This document shows positions 40,335 to 49,594 of a stretch of DNA of 64,000 nt, in pieces. The notes beneath the pieces were generated by a model. The model did not search any database. It was not told where the DNA came from and saw only the letters and a program-made list of their open reading frames with translations. The stretch's first letter is position 1, and each line of letters begins with the position of its first letter. This DNA is from Tropicimonas sp. IMCC6043 (GTDB lineage Bacteria > Pseudomonadota > Alphaproteobacteria > Rhodobacterales > Rhodobacteraceae): positions 1 to 64,000 of the forward strand of contig NZ_SELO01000024.1 of assembly GCF_004146235.1 (NCBI RefSeq), given 5' to 3'. A program made the position numbers and the translations under genes.

Positions 40335-41282
40335 ATGTCCGACAGCGACACGCATGGGAGCGTCCCGGCAGCAGAGCCGGGGCAGGGGACAACGCGCGCG
40401 GCGCAGGACGGCCGGGCGAGCGGCTTTCCGATCGTTGCGCGAACCGACTTTTCGGAGACGACCTTCCTGCTGGAGATCGAGCATCCGCAGATGGCGCGGG
40501 CGGCGAAGCCGGGTCAGTTCGTCATCGTCATGATAGACGAGCACGGCGAGCGCATCCCGCTGACCATCGCCGATTTCGACCGCGAGAAGGGGACTGTCAC
40601 GCTGGTGATCCAGGCGGTTGGCAAGTCGAGTCGCGAGATGCAGGCGCGCGCGCAGGTTGGCGCGACGCTCTACGGCATCGCCGGCCCGATGGGCATTCCG
40701 AGCGAGGTGTCCCATGCGAAGAAGGTGATCTGCGTTGGCGGCGGCCTCGGCGTGGCGCCGATCTACCCGCAGGCGCGGGCCTTCAAAGAAGCAGGCGCCC
40801 ATGTGATCGGCGTCGTTGGCTTCCGCTCCGCCAATCTCGTCTTCTGGGAAGAGAAGTTCCGCGACGTCTGCGACGAGTTCATCATCTGCACCGATGACGG
40901 GTCGGCCGGCATCAAGGGTATGGTCACCGACGGGATTGCGCAGGCGATCGCGGCGCATGGCGATATCGACGAGGTGGTGGCCATCGGCCCGCCGGTGATG
41001 ATGCGTGCCTGTTCCGAGGCGACCCGACCGCATGGTATAAAGACAATGGTGAGCCTCAACCCGATCATGGTGGATGGAACCGGAATGTGCGGTGGCTGCC
41101 GTGTCCGCGTCGGCGGGCGGATCAAGTTCGCCTGCGTCGACGGACCGGATTTCGACGGCCACGAGGTCGATTACGACGACCTGATGGCGCGGCTGAAGCG
41201 CTACCGGCCGCAGGAGGCCAAGGCCATGGAACGCTGGGACGAGAACTGCCGCATGCTGGCGATGGAAGAGGAGGCCCGCTAG
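40335..41282 (+). CDS. NfnA/sulfide dehydrogenase-type FAD/NAD-binding subunit with [2Fe-2S] site
   Basis: A 315-residue ferredoxin-NADP reductase-type subunit, as in NfnA, SudB and dihydroorotate dehydrogenase electron-transfer subunits. It has an FAD barrel (KPGQFVIVMIDEHGERIPLT), an NAD-binding fold (KKVICVGGGLGVAPIYPQAR, VVAIGPPVMMRA) and a C-terminal cluster motif GTGMCGGCRVRVGG...FACVDGP with the cysteines of a [2Fe-2S] centre. The first ~30 residues are low-complexity. It begins the operon and abuts the NfnB-like gene (stop TAG, then ATG one base on). Likely role: electron exchange between NAD(H) and the NfnB-like partner. Confidence 0.9.
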   Translation: MSDSDTHGSVPAAEPGQGTTRAAQDGRASGFPIVARTDFSETTFLLEIEHPQMARAAKPGQFVIVMIDEHGERIPLTIADFDREKGTVTLVIQAVGKSSREMQARAQVGATLYGIAGPMGIPSEVSHAKKVICVGGGLGVAPIYPQARAFKEAGAHVIGVVGFRSANLVFWEEKFRDVCDEFIICTDDGSAGIKGMVTDGIAQAIAAHGDIDEVVAIGPPVMMRACSEATRPHGIKTMVSLNPIMVDGTGMCGGCRVRVGGRIKFACVDGPDFDGHEVDYDDLMARLKRYRPQEAKAMERWDENCRMLAMEEEAR

Positions 41283-42791
41283 ATGGCACGCAAGACGATC
41301 CGGTCGATCCCGCAGGAACGGGCCTTCATGCCAGTGCTGGACGCCGAGACTCGGGCAACCAATTTCGAAGAGGTCTCGCTCGGGTTCGACGAGGCGAACG
41401 CGCTGGTCGAATGCGAGCGCTGCCTGATGTGCCCCGAACCCGCTTGCGTCGAAGGCTGCCCGGTCGGCATCGACATCCCAGGTTTCATCGCCAGGATGAT
41501 CAAGAAGGACTATCACGGCGCCTGGGAGGTGCTGACGGATTCTACCCTGCTCCCCGCGGTCTGCGGCCGGGTCTGCCCACAGGAGGACCAGTGCGAAGGC
41601 GTCTGCGCAGTGGCCGTGAGCGGCGGGCTGGAGCCGGTCGCCATCGGCAGGCTCGAACGCTGGCTCGGTGACAAGGCGATCGAGAACGGCTGGCACAAGA
41701 AGAGCCATGTCGAGCCCAACCGCTTCCGGATCGGTGTCATCGGATCGGGTCCGGCGAGCATGGCCTGCGCGGCCGATCTCGCCAAGGCGGGCTGCGAGGT
41801 CACGGTCTTCGAGGCGCTGCACGCGCCCGGCGGGGTACTGCGCTACGGCATTCCGGAATTCCGGCTGCCCAACTCGGTCGTGGATGCCGAGATCGGCAAC
41901 ATGAAGGATCTCGGCGTCGAAATCCGCAACAATACGCTGGTCGGTCGGCTCTTCACCGTCGAGCAGATGATGGACGAGATGGGCTATGACGCCGTGTTCA
42001 TCGGCACCGGCGCAGGCACCCCGAAGTTCATGGACATCCCCGGCGAGAACCTCAACGGCGTGCTCTCGGCCAACGAGCTCCTGACCCGCTGCAACCTGAT
42101 GCATGCGGGCGAGTTCCCGAATTTCGACACGCCGCTGGAGATCGGCAAGAAGGTCGCCGTCATTGGCGCCGGCAACACGGCGATGGACGCGATGCGGGTC
42201 TCGCTCCGGCTCGGTGCCGAGGAGGTCCACTGCGTCTACCGGCGCACCGAAGCCGAATGCCCGGCGCGCAAGGAAGAGCTTCACCACGCGCAGGAAGAGG
42301 GGATCGAGTTCCACTGGCTGACCGCGCCGGTCGAGCTTCTGGGGGATGACGCAAACAACGTCCGCGCCATGCGCTGCCAGCGGATGGAGTTGGGCGCGCC
42401 CGACGACTCGGGCCGGCGGCGGCCGGTGCCGATCGAAGGATCGGAATATGAGTTCGAGGCCGACACGGTGGTTTACGCCATCGGCACCTCGCCCAACCCG
42501 ATCCTCGGGCAGACCTCGAAGGTCGGGCTCAACAAATGGGGCTATATCGACACCGACGCGGATCTCGCGACGTCGCTCGCGGGCGTCTACGCGGGCGGCG
42601 ATATCGTCACCGGCGCGGCGACGGTGATCCTCGCCATGGGCGCCGGCCGGCGCGCGGCGACGAGCATCCGCAAGTATCTCGGCATCCGCGACTCGATGGT
42701 GGTCTACGAACCCGAGCGAACGGGCTTCGAGGATACGCTCTTCGGCATCGACATGGCCGAGAAGAACTTCACCCAGCTGCGGCAGATCTAG
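41283..42791 (+). CDS. NfnB/GltD-type NADPH-dependent FAD oxidoreductase
   Basis: A 502-residue flavoprotein of the NfnB (SudA, small-subunit glutamate-synthase-like) type. An N-terminal cluster domain holds Cys44, 47, 50, 55 and 59 (CERCLMCPEPACVEGC) and a second set CGRVCPQEDQCEGVC; then FAD binding (IGVIGSGPASMACAADLAKA) and NADP binding (VAVIGAGNTAMDAM). No glutamate synthase large subunit is nearby, so a GltD role is unlikely. With the preceding gene it would make an Nfn-type complex that couples NADH, NADPH and ferredoxin; in known Nfn this is flavin-based electron bifurcation. Automatic annotations often call such genes gltA or gltD. Confidence 0.9.
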   Translation: MARKTIRSIPQERAFMPVLDAETRATNFEEVSLGFDEANALVECERCLMCPEPACVEGCPVGIDIPGFIARMIKKDYHGAWEVLTDSTLLPAVCGRVCPQEDQCEGVCAVAVSGGLEPVAIGRLERWLGDKAIENGWHKKSHVEPNRFRIGVIGSGPASMACAADLAKAGCEVTVFEALHAPGGVLRYGIPEFRLPNSVVDAEIGNMKDLGVEIRNNTLVGRLFTVEQMMDEMGYDAVFIGTGAGTPKFMDIPGENLNGVLSANELLTRCNLMHAGEFPNFDTPLEIGKKVAVIGAGNTAMDAMRVSLRLGAEEVHCVYRRTEAECPARKEELHHAQEEGIEFHWLTAPVELLGDDANNVRAMRCQRMELGAPDDSGRRRPVPIEGSEYEFEADTVVYAIGTSPNPILGQTSKVGLNKWGYIDTDADLATSLAGVYAGGDIVTGAATVILAMGAGRRAATSIRKYLGIRDSMVVYEPERTGFEDTLFGIDMAEKNFTQLRQI

Positions 42792-42810: not shown

Positions 42811-44733
42811 ATGACCTCAGACAGCATGGAAGCAGTCGCCGACCCCCGGGCAGACGAGGGTGACGCAGGACGGCCGGCGCGGTCGCGCCCGGCGGAGGTG
42901 CTTCAGGAACATATCGTCGAGATCGTGAGCGACTCGGGCGAAGGCGCGCAGCGCTGCGGCCAGTCGCTGGCGGCGATCGCGGCGCGCTCGGGTATGGGGA
43001 TCTGGACGGTGGAGATCATCCCCGCCGAGATCCAGCCGCCGCCGCGCTCGGTGGCCGGTGCCTCCGGCAACCGCGTACGCATGGCGGCCGGCCCGGTGAC
43101 CAATATCGGCGACCAGGCCGACCTCGTGGTCGCCTTCAACGAGCAGGTGCTGCTCGGCCGGCTCAATGCCGGCGAGATCAAGCCGGGCGCGACGATCCTG
43201 ATCGAGAGCGGCTGGCAGGAGGACATGCATCCCGGCATCGTCGCCTCCTACCTGAAGGTCTGCGCCGATGTGCGCGCGAAGGGCTACAAGCTCTACGAAG
43301 TGCCGATGGGCAAGGAATGCCTGAAGTTCATTCCCGATCCGCGCAAGGGCAAAAACATGTTCGCGCTCGGCATGCTCTGCGCCATCTACTCGCTTGACGA
43401 GGAGGCGGCTCGGGCGCAGGTCCGCTACATCTTCGCCAAGAAGGACCAGCGGATCATCAACGCCAACATCGAGCTGCTCGATGCGGGCCGCGCCTGGGCC
43501 GAGGAAAACCTCGACATCGCCTACCGGATCCCGGCGCCGCCGGTGACCGAACCGCAGGTGGTGATGAACGGCAACGCCGCGCTGGCGCTCGGCACGGTGG
43601 CCTCGGGCATGGAAGTCTGCGCGATGTATCCGATCACGCCGGCGACCTCCGCGAGCCACTACCTCTCGGCGATCTTCGAGAAGGTGGGCTGCGTCGTGCA
43701 CCAGGCGGAGGACGAGATCTCCGCCTGCTGCTTTGCCATCGGCGCCTCCTATGCCGGCAAATGCGCGGTGACGATCACCTCCGGCCCCGGCCTCTCGCTC
43801 AAACAAGAGGCACTCGGCCTCGCGGTGATGTCGGAGATTCCGCTCGTCGTCATCGACGTACAGCGCGGCGGACCCTCGACCGGCCTGCCGACCAAGGTGG
43901 AGCAGGGCGACCTTATGGCCGCGATGTTCGGTACCCATGGCGACGCACCGAAGGTGGTGATGGCGGTGTCCTCGATCGAGGACTGTTTCCACTCGGTCAT
44001 CACCGCGCGGAAGATCGCCGAGACCTTCAACATGGTCGTGGTGATCCTGTCGGATGCCGCCCTTGCGACGGCACAGCAGCCCTTCCGCCGACCGGAGTTC
44101 CGCGCCGACTGGCTGGCGCCGCCGGTCAACCAGAGCGCAGTGCCGGAAGATGCGCACCCCTATGACTGGGACGAGCGCACCGGCATCGCCACCCGCTTCA
44201 TTCCCGGCCAGCCGAACGGCATGCATTGCCTCACCGGGCTTGCGCACGACCGGGACAGCCATGTGGCCTATGATCCGGCGACCAACGAGGAGGGGCTGCT
44301 CAACCGCTCGCGCAAGCTCGCGGCGCTTCAGACAACGCTTCGCCTCGAACCGGTCCACGGCGACGAGGAGGGCGACCTCCTGTTGATCGGCTGGGGATCG
44401 AGCCGCGGCGCGATCCAGGAGGCGGTCGACCGGCTGCGTGCCAAGGGGCACAAGGTCTCTTCGCTGCACCTGAAATTCCTGCAACCGATGGCCTCGGGCA
44501 TCGATACGGTGATGAAGCGGTTCAAGAAGGTGATGACCATCGAGAACAACTGGAACGACCCGCTGTCGGACCCGCTCGTCACCCCCGACAACCGCCGCCT
44601 GTCGCATCTGGCGATGCTCCTGCGCTCGCGCTGGCTGGTCGATGTCGACTGCTGGGGCAATTCGCGCGGACAGCCGCTGAAGCCCGGTGAGATCACCGCC
44701 GCCGCCCTCGCCAAGCTGGGAGAAGTGAAATGA
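42811..44733 (+). CDS. korA: 2-Oxoacid:ferredoxin oxidoreductase, fused gamma-alpha subunit
   Basis: A 640-residue subunit. The N-terminal gamma domain (about 30-230: GGQSLAAIAARSGMGIWTVE-like core with NEQVLLGRL) is fused to the alpha domain (about 245-640), which contains CAMYPITPATSASHYLSAI, AISGPGLSLKQE-like TSGPGLSLKQE and VIDVQRGGPSTGLPTK. This is the KorA/OorA-type architecture of 2-oxoglutarate or branched 2-oxoacid:ferredoxin oxidoreductases. The enzyme turns a 2-oxoacid and CoA into acyl-CoA, CO2 and reduced ferredoxin. The substrate cannot be fixed from motifs. Its stop overlaps the beta-subunit start by four bases. Confidence 0.92.
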   Translation: MTSDSMEAVADPRADEGDAGRPARSRPAEVLQEHIVEIVSDSGEGAQRCGQSLAAIAARSGMGIWTVEIIPAEIQPPPRSVAGASGNRVRMAAGPVTNIGDQADLVVAFNEQVLLGRLNAGEIKPGATILIESGWQEDMHPGIVASYLKVCADVRAKGYKLYEVPMGKECLKFIPDPRKGKNMFALGMLCAIYSLDEEAARAQVRYIFAKKDQRIINANIELLDAGRAWAEENLDIAYRIPAPPVTEPQVVMNGNAALALGTVASGMEVCAMYPITPATSASHYLSAIFEKVGCVVHQAEDEISACCFAIGASYAGKCAVTITSGPGLSLKQEALGLAVMSEIPLVVIDVQRGGPSTGLPTKVEQGDLMAAMFGTHGDAPKVVMAVSSIEDCFHSVITARKIAETFNMVVVILSDAALATAQQPFRRPEFRADWLAPPVNQSAVPEDAHPYDWDERTGIATRFIPGQPNGMHCLTGLAHDRDSHVAYDPATNEEGLLNRSRKLAALQTTLRLEPVHGDEEGDLLLIGWGSSRGAIQEAVDRLRAKGHKVSSLHLKFLQPMASGIDTVMKRFKKVMTIENNWNDPLSDPLVTPDNRRLSHLAMLLRSRWLVDVDCWGNSRGQPLKPGEITAAALAKLGEVK

Positions 44734-45716
44734 CCGCGACAATGACCCAGTGCCTGACGCAGTTGGTCCAGACCGACTACGGCATGACCGACTACCAGAG
44801 CGAGATCGAGCCCCGCTGGTGCACCGGCTGCGGCGACAACGCGATCCTGACGGCGATGCAGCGGCTTTGCCGCGACGAGCAACTCCCGCCGGAGAAGACC
44901 GTCAGCGTCTCGGGCATCGGCTGTGCCTCGCGGCTGCCGCATTACATGAATGCCTATGGTTTCCACGGCATCCATGGCCGCGCGCTGCCGATCGCCGAAG
45001 GAATCAAGATCCGCCGCCCCGACCTCTCGGTCTTCGTCACCACAGGCGACGGCGACAACTGTTCGATCGGCGCGGCGCACTGGCTCCACGCGGTGCGCTA
45101 CAACATGAACATGGTGGTCATGCTGCATGACAACCAGGTCTATGGCCTGACCAAGAAACAGGCCTCGCCAACCTCGCCCAAGGGGCTGACGACCAACACC
45201 ACTCCCTTCGGCGCCGCGCTCAATCCGCTGAACCCGCTGACGGTGACGCTAGGCATCTCAAACGTCTCCTTCGTGGCCCAGGTGGTCGACTGGATTCCGG
45301 AGCTGCTCTACGAGGTCCTGCACATGGCCTACAAGCACAAGGGCTTCTCCTTCATCCGCATCCTGCAGCGCTGCCCGAACTTCATGGACCACCATTTCGA
45401 CAACTGGATGCAGGACCCGGCACGCACCCGGATCCTGACCCATTCGGACGGTCTGCGCCTGAAGCCGGAGCTGTCCCGGGTCTACAAGAAGCAGGAGACG
45501 CATGACCCGCTCGACATGCCGCGTGCCCTGGCGCTGGCGGCGCTGACCGACGAGGTGCCGGTCGGCATTCTCTACAAGAACCCCGAAGTGCCCTGCTACG
45601 ACGAGCTGCGGGCCGGCGAGCGCCCCTCGACCCCGTCGCTGGTCGAGACGGTGCTCAACGAGGAGTTCGACAAGGTCGGCATCTGGCCGGCAGAGACGGC
45701 GGAGGCCGGGAGATAG
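44730..45716 (+). CDS. korB: 2-Oxoacid:ferredoxin oxidoreductase, beta subunit (TPP)
   Basis: A 328-residue TPP-binding subunit. RWCTGCGD (Cys31, Cys34) opens the cluster-binding part, SGIGCASRLPHYMNAYGFHG follows, and the TPP motif runs from GDGDNCSIG to NQVYGLTKKQASPTSPKG. These are the hallmark blocks of KorB/OorB proteins; a further conserved cysteine lies in LQRCPNF. With the gamma-alpha protein it completes an oxygen-sensitive CoA-dependent 2-oxoacid dehydrogenase. It lies four bases before the large ferredoxin-fusion gene. Confidence 0.93.
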   Translation: MTATMTQCLTQLVQTDYGMTDYQSEIEPRWCTGCGDNAILTAMQRLCRDEQLPPEKTVSVSGIGCASRLPHYMNAYGFHGIHGRALPIAEGIKIRRPDLSVFVTTGDGDNCSIGAAHWLHAVRYNMNMVVMLHDNQVYGLTKKQASPTSPKGLTTNTTPFGAALNPLNPLTVTLGISNVSFVAQVVDWIPELLYEVLHMAYKHKGFSFIRILQRCPNFMDHHFDNWMQDPARTRILTHSDGLRLKPELSRVYKKQETHDPLDMPRALALAALTDEVPVGILYKNPEVPCYDELRAGERPSTPSLVETVLNEEFDKVGIWPAETAEAGR

Positions 45717-45720
45717 GCAG

Positions 45721-47892
45721 ATGCAACACCAGACGATTGCCCCCACACCTATGCCGAGCGGCCCGGCGACGCCGTCGCTTCGGCCCGCGCTCTTTGCCCG
45801 CTACCGGGCGCTTGAGGACTTGCGGCACGACTACCCGCTCATCCTCGTCGACCGGAAGGCGGACCGGCCCCTGCTGCGCCCGCTCTCCCGTGTCATCGAC
45901 GACACCCTGAAGCGGGTCGCGCCCGCGGATCTCTCCGGCGAGGCGCTTCGGAGCCAAGTGCTCCGGCTCGAGGCCGGGATCCGCGCGCGGATCTTTGCCG
46001 GCCGGGAGGGACGGCTCTCCGATCTCTGGCGCGAGGTCGCTGCGGAGATGATCGAGACCAGCGGCGAGGCGCCGTTCGGCGCCCTCGACAACAACCTGGA
46101 GACCGCGCGCAAGGCGCTTCCGCTCGACGGCATGGTGATCGGCTGCGATGGCGAGACGCCGGGCAAGGTCCTGCGCCATGCCTGGGACGCGAAACAGGCG
46201 GCCAAGGCGCACCGGTTCCGCAAGATCGTCGACGGGCTGATCCTGAAGCTCGAGGACATCCTGAAATCCGACCACATGAAGTCGGACGAGGCGCATGGTC
46301 CGAGCGCGCTGGCCTCGGCAATGGGCGAGACCGCCAACGGGGCGATCGATTTTGGCGCGCTCTCCTCGGTGCTGCACCGCGCCCGGCCCGAAGACCGCCT
46401 GCCCGCCGACCGGGTCGACCGTATCCGCGGCGCGCTCGGCGTGCTCCGGTGCCAACCCTTCTTCGGCCCGGGCCGCGCCTCGCATAACTGCGCCGAACGG
46501 CGCGACCCCTACAGCTACACTTTCGATACCTGCTCGGCCGCGCTCGACGCCTATCGGGAGCGCCTGCCGGACGTGCTCGAATTCACCAAGGCGCTGACGG
46601 TGGCCGAACTCGAGGTCGCGCACAAGTATCGCCCGGAGTTGCATGACGGGATCCTCGCGAGCTTCGACGAGAGCGACCTTTCGGCCGAGCAGATCAACCT
46701 GCTGCCCTCGGCGCTGGTCTGCCTGCGCGACGGCGAGACCGAATCGGCCGAGATCGCCCGGAGTTACGAGGCGCTGGCCTGTGGCCTGCCGATCACGGTG
46801 ATGATCCAGGTCGACGACCTCCTCGGCCCGACATCGCCGGAGCCGCCCGCGCACAGTTTCGGGGCCGGCACGGCCCGGCTCGCGACAATGGCGATCGGGC
46901 TGAACAACGCCTTCGTTCTGCAATGCGCCTCCGCCCATATCCACGGCATGAACGCGGAACTGGAACGCGGAATGGAATACGAGGGCCCGGCGCTGTTCTC
47001 GATCTTCTCCGGCGCGACGCCGAGCGTGCCCGATGTCGCGCCCTATATCGTCTCGGCGGCGGCCACCGAATCGCGCGCCTTCCCGAGCTTCACCTACGAC
47101 CCGTCCGCTGGTGGTGACTGGGCGGCGCGGTTCGACCTGACATACAACCCGCAGCGCGAGGCCGACTGGCCGCTGCATCGGCTGGACTATGAGGACGCGC
47201 AAGGCCAGCGCCAGAGCGAGGAGGTCGCCTTCACCTTTGCCGATTTCGCCGCTTGCGACAGCCGCTACGCCCGGTTCTTCCAGCCGGTAAACGGCGAGGC
47301 GCGCGAGGAGGCGCCGGTCACGGTTCGCGACTGGATGAAGCTGCAGAGGGCGGCGGCCAATTTCTCGGCGCCCGCGATCCCGGTAATCGACCCCGACGCG
47401 CGGCTCTTCCGGGTGACCGTCGAGGGCAAGCTCGCGGAGATGGTGCGCCGGTGCAACGACGCCTGGCGGCGCCTGCAGGAACTGGCTGGGATCAACAATT
47501 CCCACGCGCTGCGCCTGTTGCAGGAAGACCGCCTGAAACGCGAGCAGACCGCAGAGTCCACCCCCGCGGCCGAGACGCCGGAGCCAGTCGCCGAAACACC
47601 TGTCCCGGCCGAGGCACCCGCGGCGGCGCAGGAGGGAGCGGCGGATGGTGCGCCGTGGATCGAGACGCCGCGCTGCACGACCTGCAACGAGTGTGTCCAG
47701 ACAAACAGCGCGCTCTTCGCCTATGACGATAACAAGCAGGCCTATATCAAGGATCCGGACGCCGGCACCTACCGCCAGCTTGTCGAGGCGGCGGAGAGTT
47801 GCCAGGTCAGCATCATCCATCCGGGCCAGCCGCGGAACCCGGACGAGGCGGATCTTGAGGAGCTGATCGAGCGCGCCGCGCCGTTCAACTGA
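45721..47892 (+). CDS. PFOR-domain-like protein fused to a [4Fe-4S] ferredoxin
   Basis: A 723-residue cytosolic protein, not a textbook family. Residues about 1-240 are helical and unrecognised. From about 280 to 560 it follows the pattern of the TPP/beta domain of pyruvate:ferredoxin oxidoreductase (ARLATMAIGLNNAFVLQCAS, GMEYEGPALFSIFSG, FPSFTYDP, then F.L..NPQ.E.DWP), but the GDG...N TPP signature is missing. An Ala/Pro/Glu-rich linker (about 610-640) leads to a ferredoxin with C652-x2-C655-x2-C658 and Cys694, enough for one [4Fe-4S] cluster. It is the last gene of the Nfn-Kor operon. A scaffold or electron-relay role between Kor and Nfn is inference. Confidence 0.75.
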   Translation: MQHQTIAPTPMPSGPATPSLRPALFARYRALEDLRHDYPLILVDRKADRPLLRPLSRVIDDTLKRVAPADLSGEALRSQVLRLEAGIRARIFAGREGRLSDLWREVAAEMIETSGEAPFGALDNNLETARKALPLDGMVIGCDGETPGKVLRHAWDAKQAAKAHRFRKIVDGLILKLEDILKSDHMKSDEAHGPSALASAMGETANGAIDFGALSSVLHRARPEDRLPADRVDRIRGALGVLRCQPFFGPGRASHNCAERRDPYSYTFDTCSAALDAYRERLPDVLEFTKALTVAELEVAHKYRPELHDGILASFDESDLSAEQINLLPSALVCLRDGETESAEIARSYEALACGLPITVMIQVDDLLGPTSPEPPAHSFGAGTARLATMAIGLNNAFVLQCASAHIHGMNAELERGMEYEGPALFSIFSGATPSVPDVAPYIVSAAATESRAFPSFTYDPSAGGDWAARFDLTYNPQREADWPLHRLDYEDAQGQRQSEEVAFTFADFAACDSRYARFFQPVNGEAREEAPVTVRDWMKLQRAAANFSAPAIPVIDPDARLFRVTVEGKLAEMVRRCNDAWRRLQELAGINNSHALRLLQEDRLKREQTAESTPAAETPEPVAETPVPAEAPAAAQEGAADGAPWIETPRCTTCNECVQTNSALFAYDDNKQAYIKDPDAGTYRQLVEAAESCQVSIIHPGQPRNPDEADLEELIERAAPFN

Positions 47893-48173
47893 CGGCGGGA
47901 GAAGGGCGGCCGGGGCCGCGAGGTCCCGGCGGCGCGACGACCCGAACAGGGAATCGATCCCTCGAAGACACCGTTCCGCGCCGATCGGGTCGCGGTCGCG
48001 CGGCGGGTGCGTGGCCCTATGGCCGGCCTACCGGGGTGCGAGATGCCTCTGGCGAGGATTGGGTGCGCGGTGCGCCACGAAATTAACATCCGGTTTGTCA
48101 CTGCGTGCAATCGGGCAGTCGCCATGCCGTTCCGGAGGGGATACAGATTCCGCAGATCCGAAGGAGAGAGATC
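47893..48173. other. Spacer before aroQ
   Basis: About 280 bases. The first part is very GC-rich with short stems (GGCCGGGGCC type) that may end the Kor operon. The second part carries the 18-base motif at 48082-48099 and the promoter of aroQ. Confidence 0.4.
48082..48099 (+). promoter_or_regulatory. Shared motif ATTAACAT-n2-GGTTTG-n-C, copy 1
   Basis: ATTAACATCCGGTTTGTC lies 75 bases before the aroQ start. It agrees at 14 of 18 positions with the element at 50617-50634 in front of the second operon, same orientation. Probably the binding site of the LysR protein encoded between them. Confidence 0.5.
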
Positions 48174-48614
48174 GTGACTAAGCTCATTTTTGTCCTGAAT
48201 GGACCGAACCTCAACCTGCTCGGCAAGCGCCAGCCCGAAATCTACGGGCGCGAGACGCTGGAGGACGTGGAGCGGAACTGTGCCAAGGTCGGCGCAGGTT
48301 TCGGCCTCGACGTGCGGCTGCTTCAATCCAACCACGAGGGCCAGATCGTCGACTGGATTCACGAGGCGCGCGAGGCGGCTGCCGGCATCGTGATCAATCC
48401 GGGGGCCTTCACGCATACCTCGGTGGCCATTCTGGATGCGCTGAACGCCTTCGAAGGACCGGTCTTCGAGGTGCATATCAGCCAGGTACACAAGCGCGAG
48501 GCCTTCCGGCACCACTCCTATGTCAGCATGCGGTCGGACGGCATTATCGTCGGCTGTGGCATCGAGGGCTACGAACTCGCCATGCGCCGCCTCGGAACGC
48601 TCCTCGCGGACTGA
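48174..48614 (+). CDS. aroQ: 3-Dehydroquinate dehydratase, type II
   Basis: A 146-residue type II dehydroquinase. [20 protein letters not shown] holds the catalytic arginine and Tyr24; [16 protein letters not shown] and [17 protein letters not shown] carry the substrate and His motifs. It interconverts 3-dehydroquinate and 3-dehydroshikimate. The start is GTG at 48174 with AAGGAG seven bases before; upstream in-frame codons lack similarity. The neighbours (quinate/shikimate-type dehydrogenase and quiC) show that this copy serves catabolism of quinate or shikimate, not aromatic amino-acid synthesis. Confidence 0.93.
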
Positions 48615-48757
48615 GCGCCTGCGACGGCCGGACCGCGCTTCGGCGGCCGCGTCTCTCCTGTGCCCGCAGTGTGCCGGTGAATCCGCCGGTGCAATCTGTC
48701 TCCTCCCCAATCGCGGGTCGCAACAGGCCCGCGCCCTGCCAAAGCAAGGACGTGGCC

Positions 48758-49594
48758 ATGGCCGATCTTCAACTGGGACTCATCGGTGACAACATCTCCA
48801 GCTCCTCGGCACCACGGCTGCATCGCCTCGCCGGACGTCAAAACGGGCTCGACGTTCGATACGACCGGCTTGTCCCGGCGGAGCTCGGCAAGTCCTTCGA
48901 CGAGATCCTGGCCGATTGTCGCGCGACCGGGTTCCGCGGGATCAATGTCACCTATCCTTACAAGGAAGTCGCGGCCCGCAAGGTCACCATCGAAGACCCG
49001 CAGGTTCGCCGCATCGGCGCGGTGAACACGATCCGGTTCGAGGATGGCGCGGCATTCGGGTTCAACACGGACTACACCGGATTCATCGGCGGCTACCGGG
49101 CGGTCCGGGGAGACAAAGCCCCCGGCGTCGTCGGCGTTGCGGGGGCGGGCGGTGTCGGGCGCGCGGTCACTTTCGGCCTGCTGACGCTCGGGGCGAGCGA
49201 GATCCGTCTGTTCGACCGGGACGCGGAAAAGGCCGAGACGCTGGCCCGGGCGCTGCGGGAGGCCGGCACGGAGACACGTGTGGCGGCGTCCGCCAGCCCG
49301 GCCGAGATGGCGCGCGACACGACTGGCCTCATCAACTGCACGCAGCTGGGCATGGTCGGCTATCCCGGCTCCGCTATCCCGCGCGACCTGATGGGCGGCC
49401 AGGAATGGGCATTCGATGCGGTCTACACGCCGATCGACACGGCTTTCCTGCTGGATGCGGCGGCGGAGGGGATGCAGATCATCTCTGGCTACGAACTGTT
49501 CTTCTTTCAGGGCGTCCATGCCTGGTCGATCTTCTCCGATCTCCCGCTGGACGAGGATCGTCTGCGGCAGGATCTGGCCTCGGGTGCGGACTGA
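48758..49594 (+). CDS. Shikimate/quinate dehydrogenase (AroE-like, catabolic type)
   Basis: A 278-residue AroE-fold enzyme. The substrate serines lie in NISSSSAPRLH (13-23), the catalytic lysine is Lys69 in NVTYPYKE (biosynthetic AroE usually has NVTxPHK), and the dinucleotide fold starts GVAGAGGVGRAVTFGL. FDRDAEKAETL follows the second strand: an acidic residue there favours NAD over NADP, as expected for a catabolic enzyme. It would oxidise quinate or shikimate to the 3-dehydro acid, the substrate of AroQ/QuiC. ATG 48758 is preceded by AAGGA. About 140 bases behind aroQ. Confidence 0.88.
   Translation: MADLQLGLIGDNISSSSAPRLHRLAGRQNGLDVRYDRLVPAELGKSFDEILADCRATGFRGINVTYPYKEVAARKVTIEDPQVRRIGAVNTIRFEDGAAFGFNTDYTGFIGGYRAVRGDKAPGVVGVAGAGGVGRAVTFGLLTLGASEIRLFDRDAEKAETLARALREAGTETRVAASASPAEMARDTTGLINCTQLGMVGYPGSAIPRDLMGGQEWAFDAVYTPIDTAFLLDAAAEGMQIISGYELFFFQGVHAWSIFSDLPLDEDRLRQDLASGAD

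Follow-up and report, generated by a model that had tools for sequence, protein, structure and literature searches.

A probably non-catalytic PFOR-related protein with a tethered ferredoxin, encoded beside KorAB and NfnAB-like genes in Tropicimonas sp. IMCC6043

Introduction

The 2-oxoglutarate:NADP+ oxidoreductase of Azoarcus evansii consists of KorAB coupled to an NADP+-reducing flavoprotein, and to our knowledge it contains no subunit with a ferredoxin that resembles pyruvate:ferredoxin oxidoreductase (PFOR); nor do we know of a PFOR-like third subunit in Mag-KOR. Relatives of Nfn use free ferredoxin, and we know of no pseudoenzymes of the 2-oxoacid oxidoreductase family. An open-access literature search that included the term 'pseudoenzyme' found none of this family; among the matches listed, the titles and abstract openings in the open-access literature named neither the protein described here nor a kor-nfn operon that includes a subunit of this kind. 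StOFOR is described as a two-subunit enzyme with an external ferredoxin (PMC5020499), and for the Solemya velum symbiont a PFOR in an Rnf setting, between rnfB2 and rnfC2, has been published (PMC4287430).

Here we describe a 723-aa protein, called X below, that is encoded in a window of 64,000 nucleotides of Tropicimonas sp. IMCC6043 (contig NZ_SELO01000024.1, positions 1 to 64,000 of the forward strand). The family of the host, Rhodobacteraceae, is known mostly from aerobic seawater bacteria.

Results

Curated libraries recognise a single ferredoxin domain in X

The original prediction gave X 723 residues and a one-cluster ferredoxin with cysteines at 652, 655, 658 and 694, and both statements agree with the translation of the open reading frame and with a Pfam match to Fer4_13 (residues 651–700, 27.6 bits against a cut-off of 24.5), while Fer4_15 stays under its cut-off (Table 1). 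The ferredoxin is all that the curated libraries (Pfam, NCBIfam) see in X: the NCBIfam search gave no match, and Pfam gave no match to POR_N, PFOR_II or POR at E 10. When X was searched by sequence against the PDB, it reached Ferredoxin I (1dax), at E 1.7e-4 with the single sequence and 1.4e-6 with a profile, and, besides ferredoxin, had no match at a meaningful E-value.

Table 1. Features of the nfn-kor-X operon and of protein X, with positions in the window
Feature	Position	Strand	Support
nfnA-like (NfnS), FAD/NAD-binding, motif DGTGMCxxC	40335..41282	+	phmmer 5jca_S (NfnI) E 3.2e-94, 4ylf_A 1.4e-77; PRK06222 390.8 bits (cut-off 220)
nfnB-like (NfnL, GltD-type)	41283..42791	+	phmmer 4ylf_B E 3.5e-162, 5jca_L (NfnI) 1.2e-142
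korA, 2-oxoacid:acceptor oxidoreductase alpha (gamma-alpha fusion)	42811..44733	+	TIGR03710 515.1 bits (cut-off 482.75); POR_N, POR; YPITP at 273
korB, beta subunit (GDG..N and CxxC present)	44730..45716	+	Mag-KOR 6n2n_B E 5.6e-53; TPP_enzyme_C 87.6 bits
X, probably non-catalytic PFOR domain V–VI relative with tethered ferredoxin, 723 aa	45721..47892	+	ORF, model, VIA, hhalign
X residues 20–265, helical module that aligns with domain V and with helical segments of long PFORs	45778..46515	+	hhalign
X residues 266–610, domain VI-like region	46516..47550	+	hhalign of this region alone against the long-PFOR profile, E 1.1e-73; VIA Z 18.0
X residues 611–645, flexible linker rich in Ala/Pro/Glu	47551..47655	+	pLDDT, composition
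X residues 646–700, one-cluster ferredoxin (C652, C655, C658, C694)	47656..47820	+	Fer4_13; 1dax
X residues 701–723, conserved C-terminal tail, predicted helix 712–722	47821..47889	+	median identity 65%; model
Cys142 of X, sole proximal-cluster cysteine position retained	46144..46146	+	X alignments
R336-D337-G338 of X, remnant of the GDG motif	46726..46734	+	alignment with long PFORs

X is homologous to domains V–VI of long PFORs

In profile comparisons with hhalign, residues 20–610 of X align over 568 columns with a profile of eight active long PFORs (E 8.9e-85), and residues 20–135 taken alone reach E 1.8e-10; since these comparisons are pairwise, the E-values hold for a single template. We then considered the AlphaFold2 model of the full protein, a single chain predicted from 22 rows of X sequences (pLDDT 81.5, pTM 0.73). 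Foldseek ranks PFORs first (6cio_D, E 4.7e-5), but with a low TM-score (0.23 by query length) and an rmsd of 11.1. With VIA, residues 35–590 of the model match residues 689–1170 of Moorella PFOR (6ciq_C) at Z 18.0 over 284 residues, with an rmsd of 5.9 and 15% identity; the beta chains of two-subunit KOR/OFOR/OOR enzymes match more weakly (Z 7.0–8.9), and unrelated rows, one of them vinculin, lie at Z about 5–6. The claim that the middle of X parallels the last PFOR domain was thus borne out by hhalign, Foldseek and VIA, and its predicted structure does relate to PFOR; because the profile comparison and the fold match span both domains, the relation is longer and takes in the whole domain V–VI half. 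On these comparisons of sequence, X is homologous over residues 20–610 to domains V–VI of the long PFOR subtype.

Residues 1–268 were also folded separately and gave a pLDDT of 76.5 and a pTM of 0.59. The N-terminal alignment comprised 18 of the 22 rows (L013, L018, L020 and L022 were excluded; for L013 and L018 a start close to that of the alignment was chosen by hand). Foldseek found no match to this N-terminal model in the PDB under E 0.001 (6cin_B stands at E 6.2), and the best VIA hits, at Z 6.7, were unrelated helical chains, so a solved fold for the isolated module was rejected. Since nothing in the PDB clearly resembles the isolated N-terminal module, its relation to domain V rests on the hhalign profile comparison.

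X forms a rare family

Relatives were collected from 33 loci of a genome collection, 21 of which encode X (L003–L022 and L031) and 12 long PFORs or pieces at contig edges; adding the window and L075 and L076, two loci of whole genomes, brings the X loci to 24. Among the remaining pieces, L028 was compared by BLAST only, as a long-PFOR piece 57% identical to L029, and L034 comprises 60 residues followed by rnfC and is too short for a sure assignment. In a tree of the domain VI region, in which long branches were flagged, 19 X rows stand apart from 12 long-PFOR rows with full support, which makes X, by this tree, a clade of its own separate from the PFORs. Its distribution is sparse: among 398 Pseudomonadota genomes 49 match at all, the host genome alone with the full profile, and within the family of the host X occurs in 3 of 394 genomes. 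Of the 45 weaker matches among Pseudomonadota, 44 lie in frames of 415–592 aa, and one (L048) was read. X is present in the type strains Aliiruegeria lutimaris (L003) and Tropicimonas isoalkanivorans (L007). One operon (L006) lies on a contig labelled Anaerolineae, while its X groups with the alphaproteobacterial L009 by very short branches; the grouping suggests that the contig is probably misbinned.

Catalytic sites are lost and the ferredoxin is kept

X and long PFORs were aligned together, with 19 of the 22 X rows included (L010, L020 and L022, cut by contig ends, were excluded, as was the long-PFOR row L030; L033 is likewise outside the alignment). In the GDG..T..N columns the first Gly, the Thr and the Asn are found in 0 of 19 X rows, and the Asp and the last Gly in 11 of 19 each. 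The four proximal [4Fe-4S] cysteine positions are occupied in 0, 19, 0 and 0 of 19 rows, and both CxxCxxC cluster motifs of domain V of the long PFORs align to gaps. Furthermore, X has a CxxC only within its ferredoxin, and the GDG..N and proximal CxxC of OFOR/KOR beta subunits are missing at the aligned positions. Judged by the motifs that define these proteins, X therefore belongs neither to the PFORs nor to the KOR beta subunits, and it is probably a non-catalytic subunit within the 2-oxoacid:ferredoxin oxidoreductase family. The idea of a catalytically silent copy is supported in that the TPP motif is broken and three of the four proximal cysteines are lost; the statement that GDG..N is absent holds for the first Gly, Thr and Asn, but D-G persists in X itself. 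The cysteine that remains, Cys142, is kept in 20 of the 20 rows that reach it and is aligned to the second Cys of the CxxC in 19 of 19; it is invariant although its three partner ligands are lost.

At the Mg loop, X has QVDDLL after residue 360, a Gln-x-Asp-Asp in place of the Asp-Thr-Gln-Val of the TPP/Mg loop, and this substitute is itself conserved (Q in 17, D in 16 and D in 17 of 19 rows). It is conceivable that non-canonical residues form a functional TPP or metal site in X, for which KorA would supply the partner domain, and the persistence of D337-G338, with the Asp in 11 of 19 rows, would point the same way. We consider such a site very unlikely: the first Gly, the Thr and the Asn never occur, residues 374–382 just past the loop are modelled with pLDDT under 50, X matches none of POR_N, PFOR_II and POR, and the neighbouring KorB has an intact motif. 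The question of a TPP pocket raised by the original prediction is thus answered for the canonical motif, broken in 19 of 19 rows, while the conserved Gln-x-Asp-Asp leaves room for a non-canonical one. On the same count, X as a PFOR-type catalyst was rejected, with the new Gln-x-Asp-Asp as a reservation.

The ferredoxin is the most conserved region of X and the linker the least: the median identity to X is 80% in the ferredoxin, 43.5% in domain VI, 41% in the N-terminal module and 22% in the linker, and all 21 rows that extend to the ferredoxin cysteines have them. The linker had been called acidic, and indeed residues 608–645 hold 8 D/E and no K/R among 38 residues; with 19 A/P it is better described as rich in Ala, Pro and Glu. 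Residues 615–651 have a pLDDT under 50 in the AlphaFold2 model and, because the linker is disordered there, the ferredoxin is probably mobile. In view of the many sites lost, X could be regarded as a decaying remnant; this is scarcely credible, since 19 of the 22 rows are of whole length (719–859 aa, with L015 stopping where its contig does; the other three are cut by contig ends), 59 positions are the same in every row present, and no ferredoxin cysteine is ever replaced. A pseudogene was likewise rejected, X being conserved across phyla.

X follows KorB and lies beside nfn or rnf genes

Among solved structures, the two genes upstream of korA have NfnA and NfnB as their nearest matches (5jca, named NfnI in its structure record, and 4ylf, which we take to be the NfnAB structure), while NCBIfam calls nfnB 'NADPH-dependent glutamate synthase' (TIGR01316, 576 bits, cut-off 471.75). 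KorB scores just under the cut-off of TIGR02177 (245 against 261.9 bits) and has intact motifs. The genes nfnA, nfnB, korA, korB and X are spaced by 0, 19, -4 and 4 bases, and this order, with X last in the operon, is found in 17 of the 24 X loci (the window, L003–L010, L012, where nfnA is cut by the contig start, L013–L015, L017, L018, L075 and L076). L019 shows nfnB-korA-korB-X from the contig edge, and L011, L016 and L020 end too early for nfn or rnf to be visible. In L021, L022 and L031, from Cloacimonadota, Calditrichota and a gammaproteobacterial MAG, X adjoins rnfB, a long PFOR-like gene and rnfC.

The korB gene lies directly upstream of X in 21 of the 21 loci in which that side is visible, although in L021 korA does not adjoin korB. 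Of 394 genomes of the host's family, 3 have X and the same 3 have this KorB; these are not three independent events because two of them belong to one genus; among the 398 Pseudomonadota genomes, one has a KorB match (47% identity) without X. The tie of X to Kor, foreseen in the original prediction, is supported by gene order and co-occurrence; that reading missed the homology to domain V, the NfnA- and NfnB-like neighbours and the Rnf genes beside X in other phyla.

Adjacency of genes is no proof of contact, and the loci with Rnf genes show a change of partner to be possible, so that X could hand the electrons of KorAB to some other acceptor while NfnAB only balances pools through free ferredoxin. 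We regard this as improbable, given that, of the 21 X loci on contigs long enough to tell, 18 have nfn genes and the other three have rnf genes; a nitrogenase-type acceptor is unlikely because no nifH was found above the cut-off in the three X-bearing genomes of the family. For the same reason a tie of X to nitrogen fixation was rejected. The three genomes have no rnfC above the cut-off and do have SucA above it.

Downstream, the first gene begins 212 bases after X; this gene (48105-48614) and the next (48671-49594) are presumably aroQ and aroE. They were rejected as operon members on account of the gap and because aroQ was matched in no relative's locus, the window's own DNA (L001) excepted. 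Promoter and terminator scans gave no excess over shuffled sequences (1 against 0.9 and 4 against 4.1).

Long PFORs and degraded relatives share the setting

A search of the host genome with X gave a second match, at E 2.7e-20, in an open frame of 1672 residues. This paralogue is a long PFOR of 1666 aa from the first start codon, with GDG..N and the proximal and domain V cluster motifs intact, and it ends in a one-cluster ferredoxin (Fer4_15, 28.0 bits, cut-off 22.4). At its locus (L036, 3570-11308 of G000:C293) the PFOR gene is followed by a fused NfnB-NfnA gene, the product of which is 42% and 43% identical to NfnB and NfnA of the X operon. The parallel between the two host loci is one of layout, because the ferredoxin of the long PFOR is far from that of X, on a very long branch.

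In the Gemmatimonadota loci L026, L027 and L029, about 1 kb separates korA-korB from rnfB, after which comes a long PFOR whose motifs and ferredoxin are intact. L027 and L029 continue to rnfC and further, and L026 ends with its contig. In the Solemya velum symbiont (L024, 5061-9731) the PFOR frame stops at 1556 aa without a ferredoxin, while the tblastn match extends to residue 722 of X, which points to a frameshift or a sequence error. The PFOR-like genes between rnfB and rnfC in L021 (11072-15712), L022 (2205-6698) and L031 (8652-13253) are each degraded differently: in L022 and L031 the TPP motif and the proximal cysteines are lost and the domain V motifs kept, and in L021 the GDG is kept and the Asn and all cluster motifs are lost. 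From their motifs it is possible that they form a second set of PFOR pseudoenzymes. Finally, L048 (514-2190) encodes a standalone domain V–VI subunit of 558 aa with all motifs present.

X may serve as an electron adaptor of KorAB

Altogether, we favour, as fairly probable, the reading in which X, as a half of PFOR without catalysis, docks on KorAB and hands 2-oxoacid electrons to NfnAB through its tethered ferredoxin. The homology and fold, the loss of sites, the conservation of the ferredoxin, the gene order, the co-occurrence, the Nfn-like neighbours, the host layout of long PFOR and NfnB-NfnA and the lack of an rnfC above the cut-off in the three family genomes count in its favour; the N-terminal module without a clear PDB match, the low Foldseek TM-scores of the whole model, the conservation of Cys142 and Gln-x-Asp-Asp for no known reason, korA in L021 and the one KorB without X count against it. 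Among the roles first suggested, a structural or electron-relay subunit of Kor, the link to Kor stands and the relay is plausible.

X would be the C-terminal half of a long-type PFOR (domains V–VI with the C-terminal ferredoxin) turned pseudoenzyme, from which the TPP motif, the proximal cluster and both domain V clusters disappeared while the scaffold and the tethered ferredoxin stayed. It would most likely bind KorAB, itself without domain V, and give it, as a separate subunit, the scaffold and ferredoxin that long PFORs carry C-terminally. KorAB would oxidise a 2-oxoacid, probably 2-oxoglutarate, and electrons would pass from the predicted [4Fe-4S] cluster of KorB to the mobile ferredoxin of X, on to NfnAB and to NADPH, with NADH made alongside if NfnAB here works like its relatives. 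Alternatively, the chain may run in reverse and drive reductive carboxylation. In the Cloacimonadota, the Calditrichota and one gammaproteobacterial MAG, X would serve Rnf instead. Because the three family genomes lack rnfC and nifH above the cut-off and have SucA, Kor is better seen as an extra route than as the only step that closes the citric acid cycle, and NfnAB as the neighbouring acceptor.

X could also be a structural or regulatory partner of KorAB, such as a dimer spacer or an oxygen or redox sensor, with its ferredoxin off the main electron path. Three of the four long-PFOR clusters are gone, as if scaffold had been retained more than chemistry, Cys142 is invariant, and with SucA in all three family genomes Kor is an extra route; but the best-conserved part of X is a ferredoxin on a flexible linker, as expected of a relay, and we think a purely structural or regulatory function unlikely. 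Even as an adaptor between KorAB and NfnAB, X need not be their exclusive link, because relatives of KorAB and NfnAB use free ferredoxin (StOFOR, as described in PMC5020499).

Discussion

If X channels the low-potential electrons of KOR to a flavin-based bifurcating enzyme, it would show how members of the mostly aerobic Rhodobacteraceae could run a ferredoxin-dependent reaction and release no reduced ferredoxin. For the 2-oxoacid oxidoreductases this would add a third way for electrons to leave the enzyme, next to the built-in domain V and free ferredoxin. An unnamed gene of Aliiruegeria lutimaris and Tropicimonas isoalkanivorans, both type strains, would thereby gain a likely role. A bolder version, which we hold as a tentative possibility, is that the dead PFOR half is a general adaptor that fills the empty domain V pocket of KorAB and swings its ferredoxin to NfnAB (or Rnf), so that a five-subunit complex would couple 2-oxoacid oxidation and electron confurcation without free ferredoxin.

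Among known systems, KorAB of the X operon is nearest to the two-subunit KOR/OFOR enzymes (Mag-KOR, 6n2n; StOFOR, 5b46-5b48), to the beta subunits of which X itself has the weaker fold match (Z 7.0–8.1). The PFORs of Desulfovibrio and Moorella (1b0p, 6cin) have the fold of the V–VI half in common with X (Z 17.3–18.0), and X differs by its tethered ferredoxin and by lacking their TPP motif and three of their clusters. For the Solemya velum symbiont, a pyruvate-oxidising PFOR is described, not X (PMC4287430). The standalone L048 subunit has the same V–VI extent as X in a separate gene; it carries GDG..N, the proximal motif and both domain V motifs and is without a C-terminal ferredoxin, while X is the reverse. 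Another known system is the long PFOR of about 1650–1700 aa (G000:C293, Gemmatimonadota, Ectothiorhodospiraceae): it has domains I–IV, an intact TPP motif and the proximal and domain V clusters, all of which are missing from X, but its domains V–VI align end to end with residues 20–610 of X, in the Gemmatimonadota and Ectothiorhodospiraceae its C-terminal ferredoxin also aligns with that of X at 41–70% identity, and, like X, long PFORs adjoin nfn or rnf genes.
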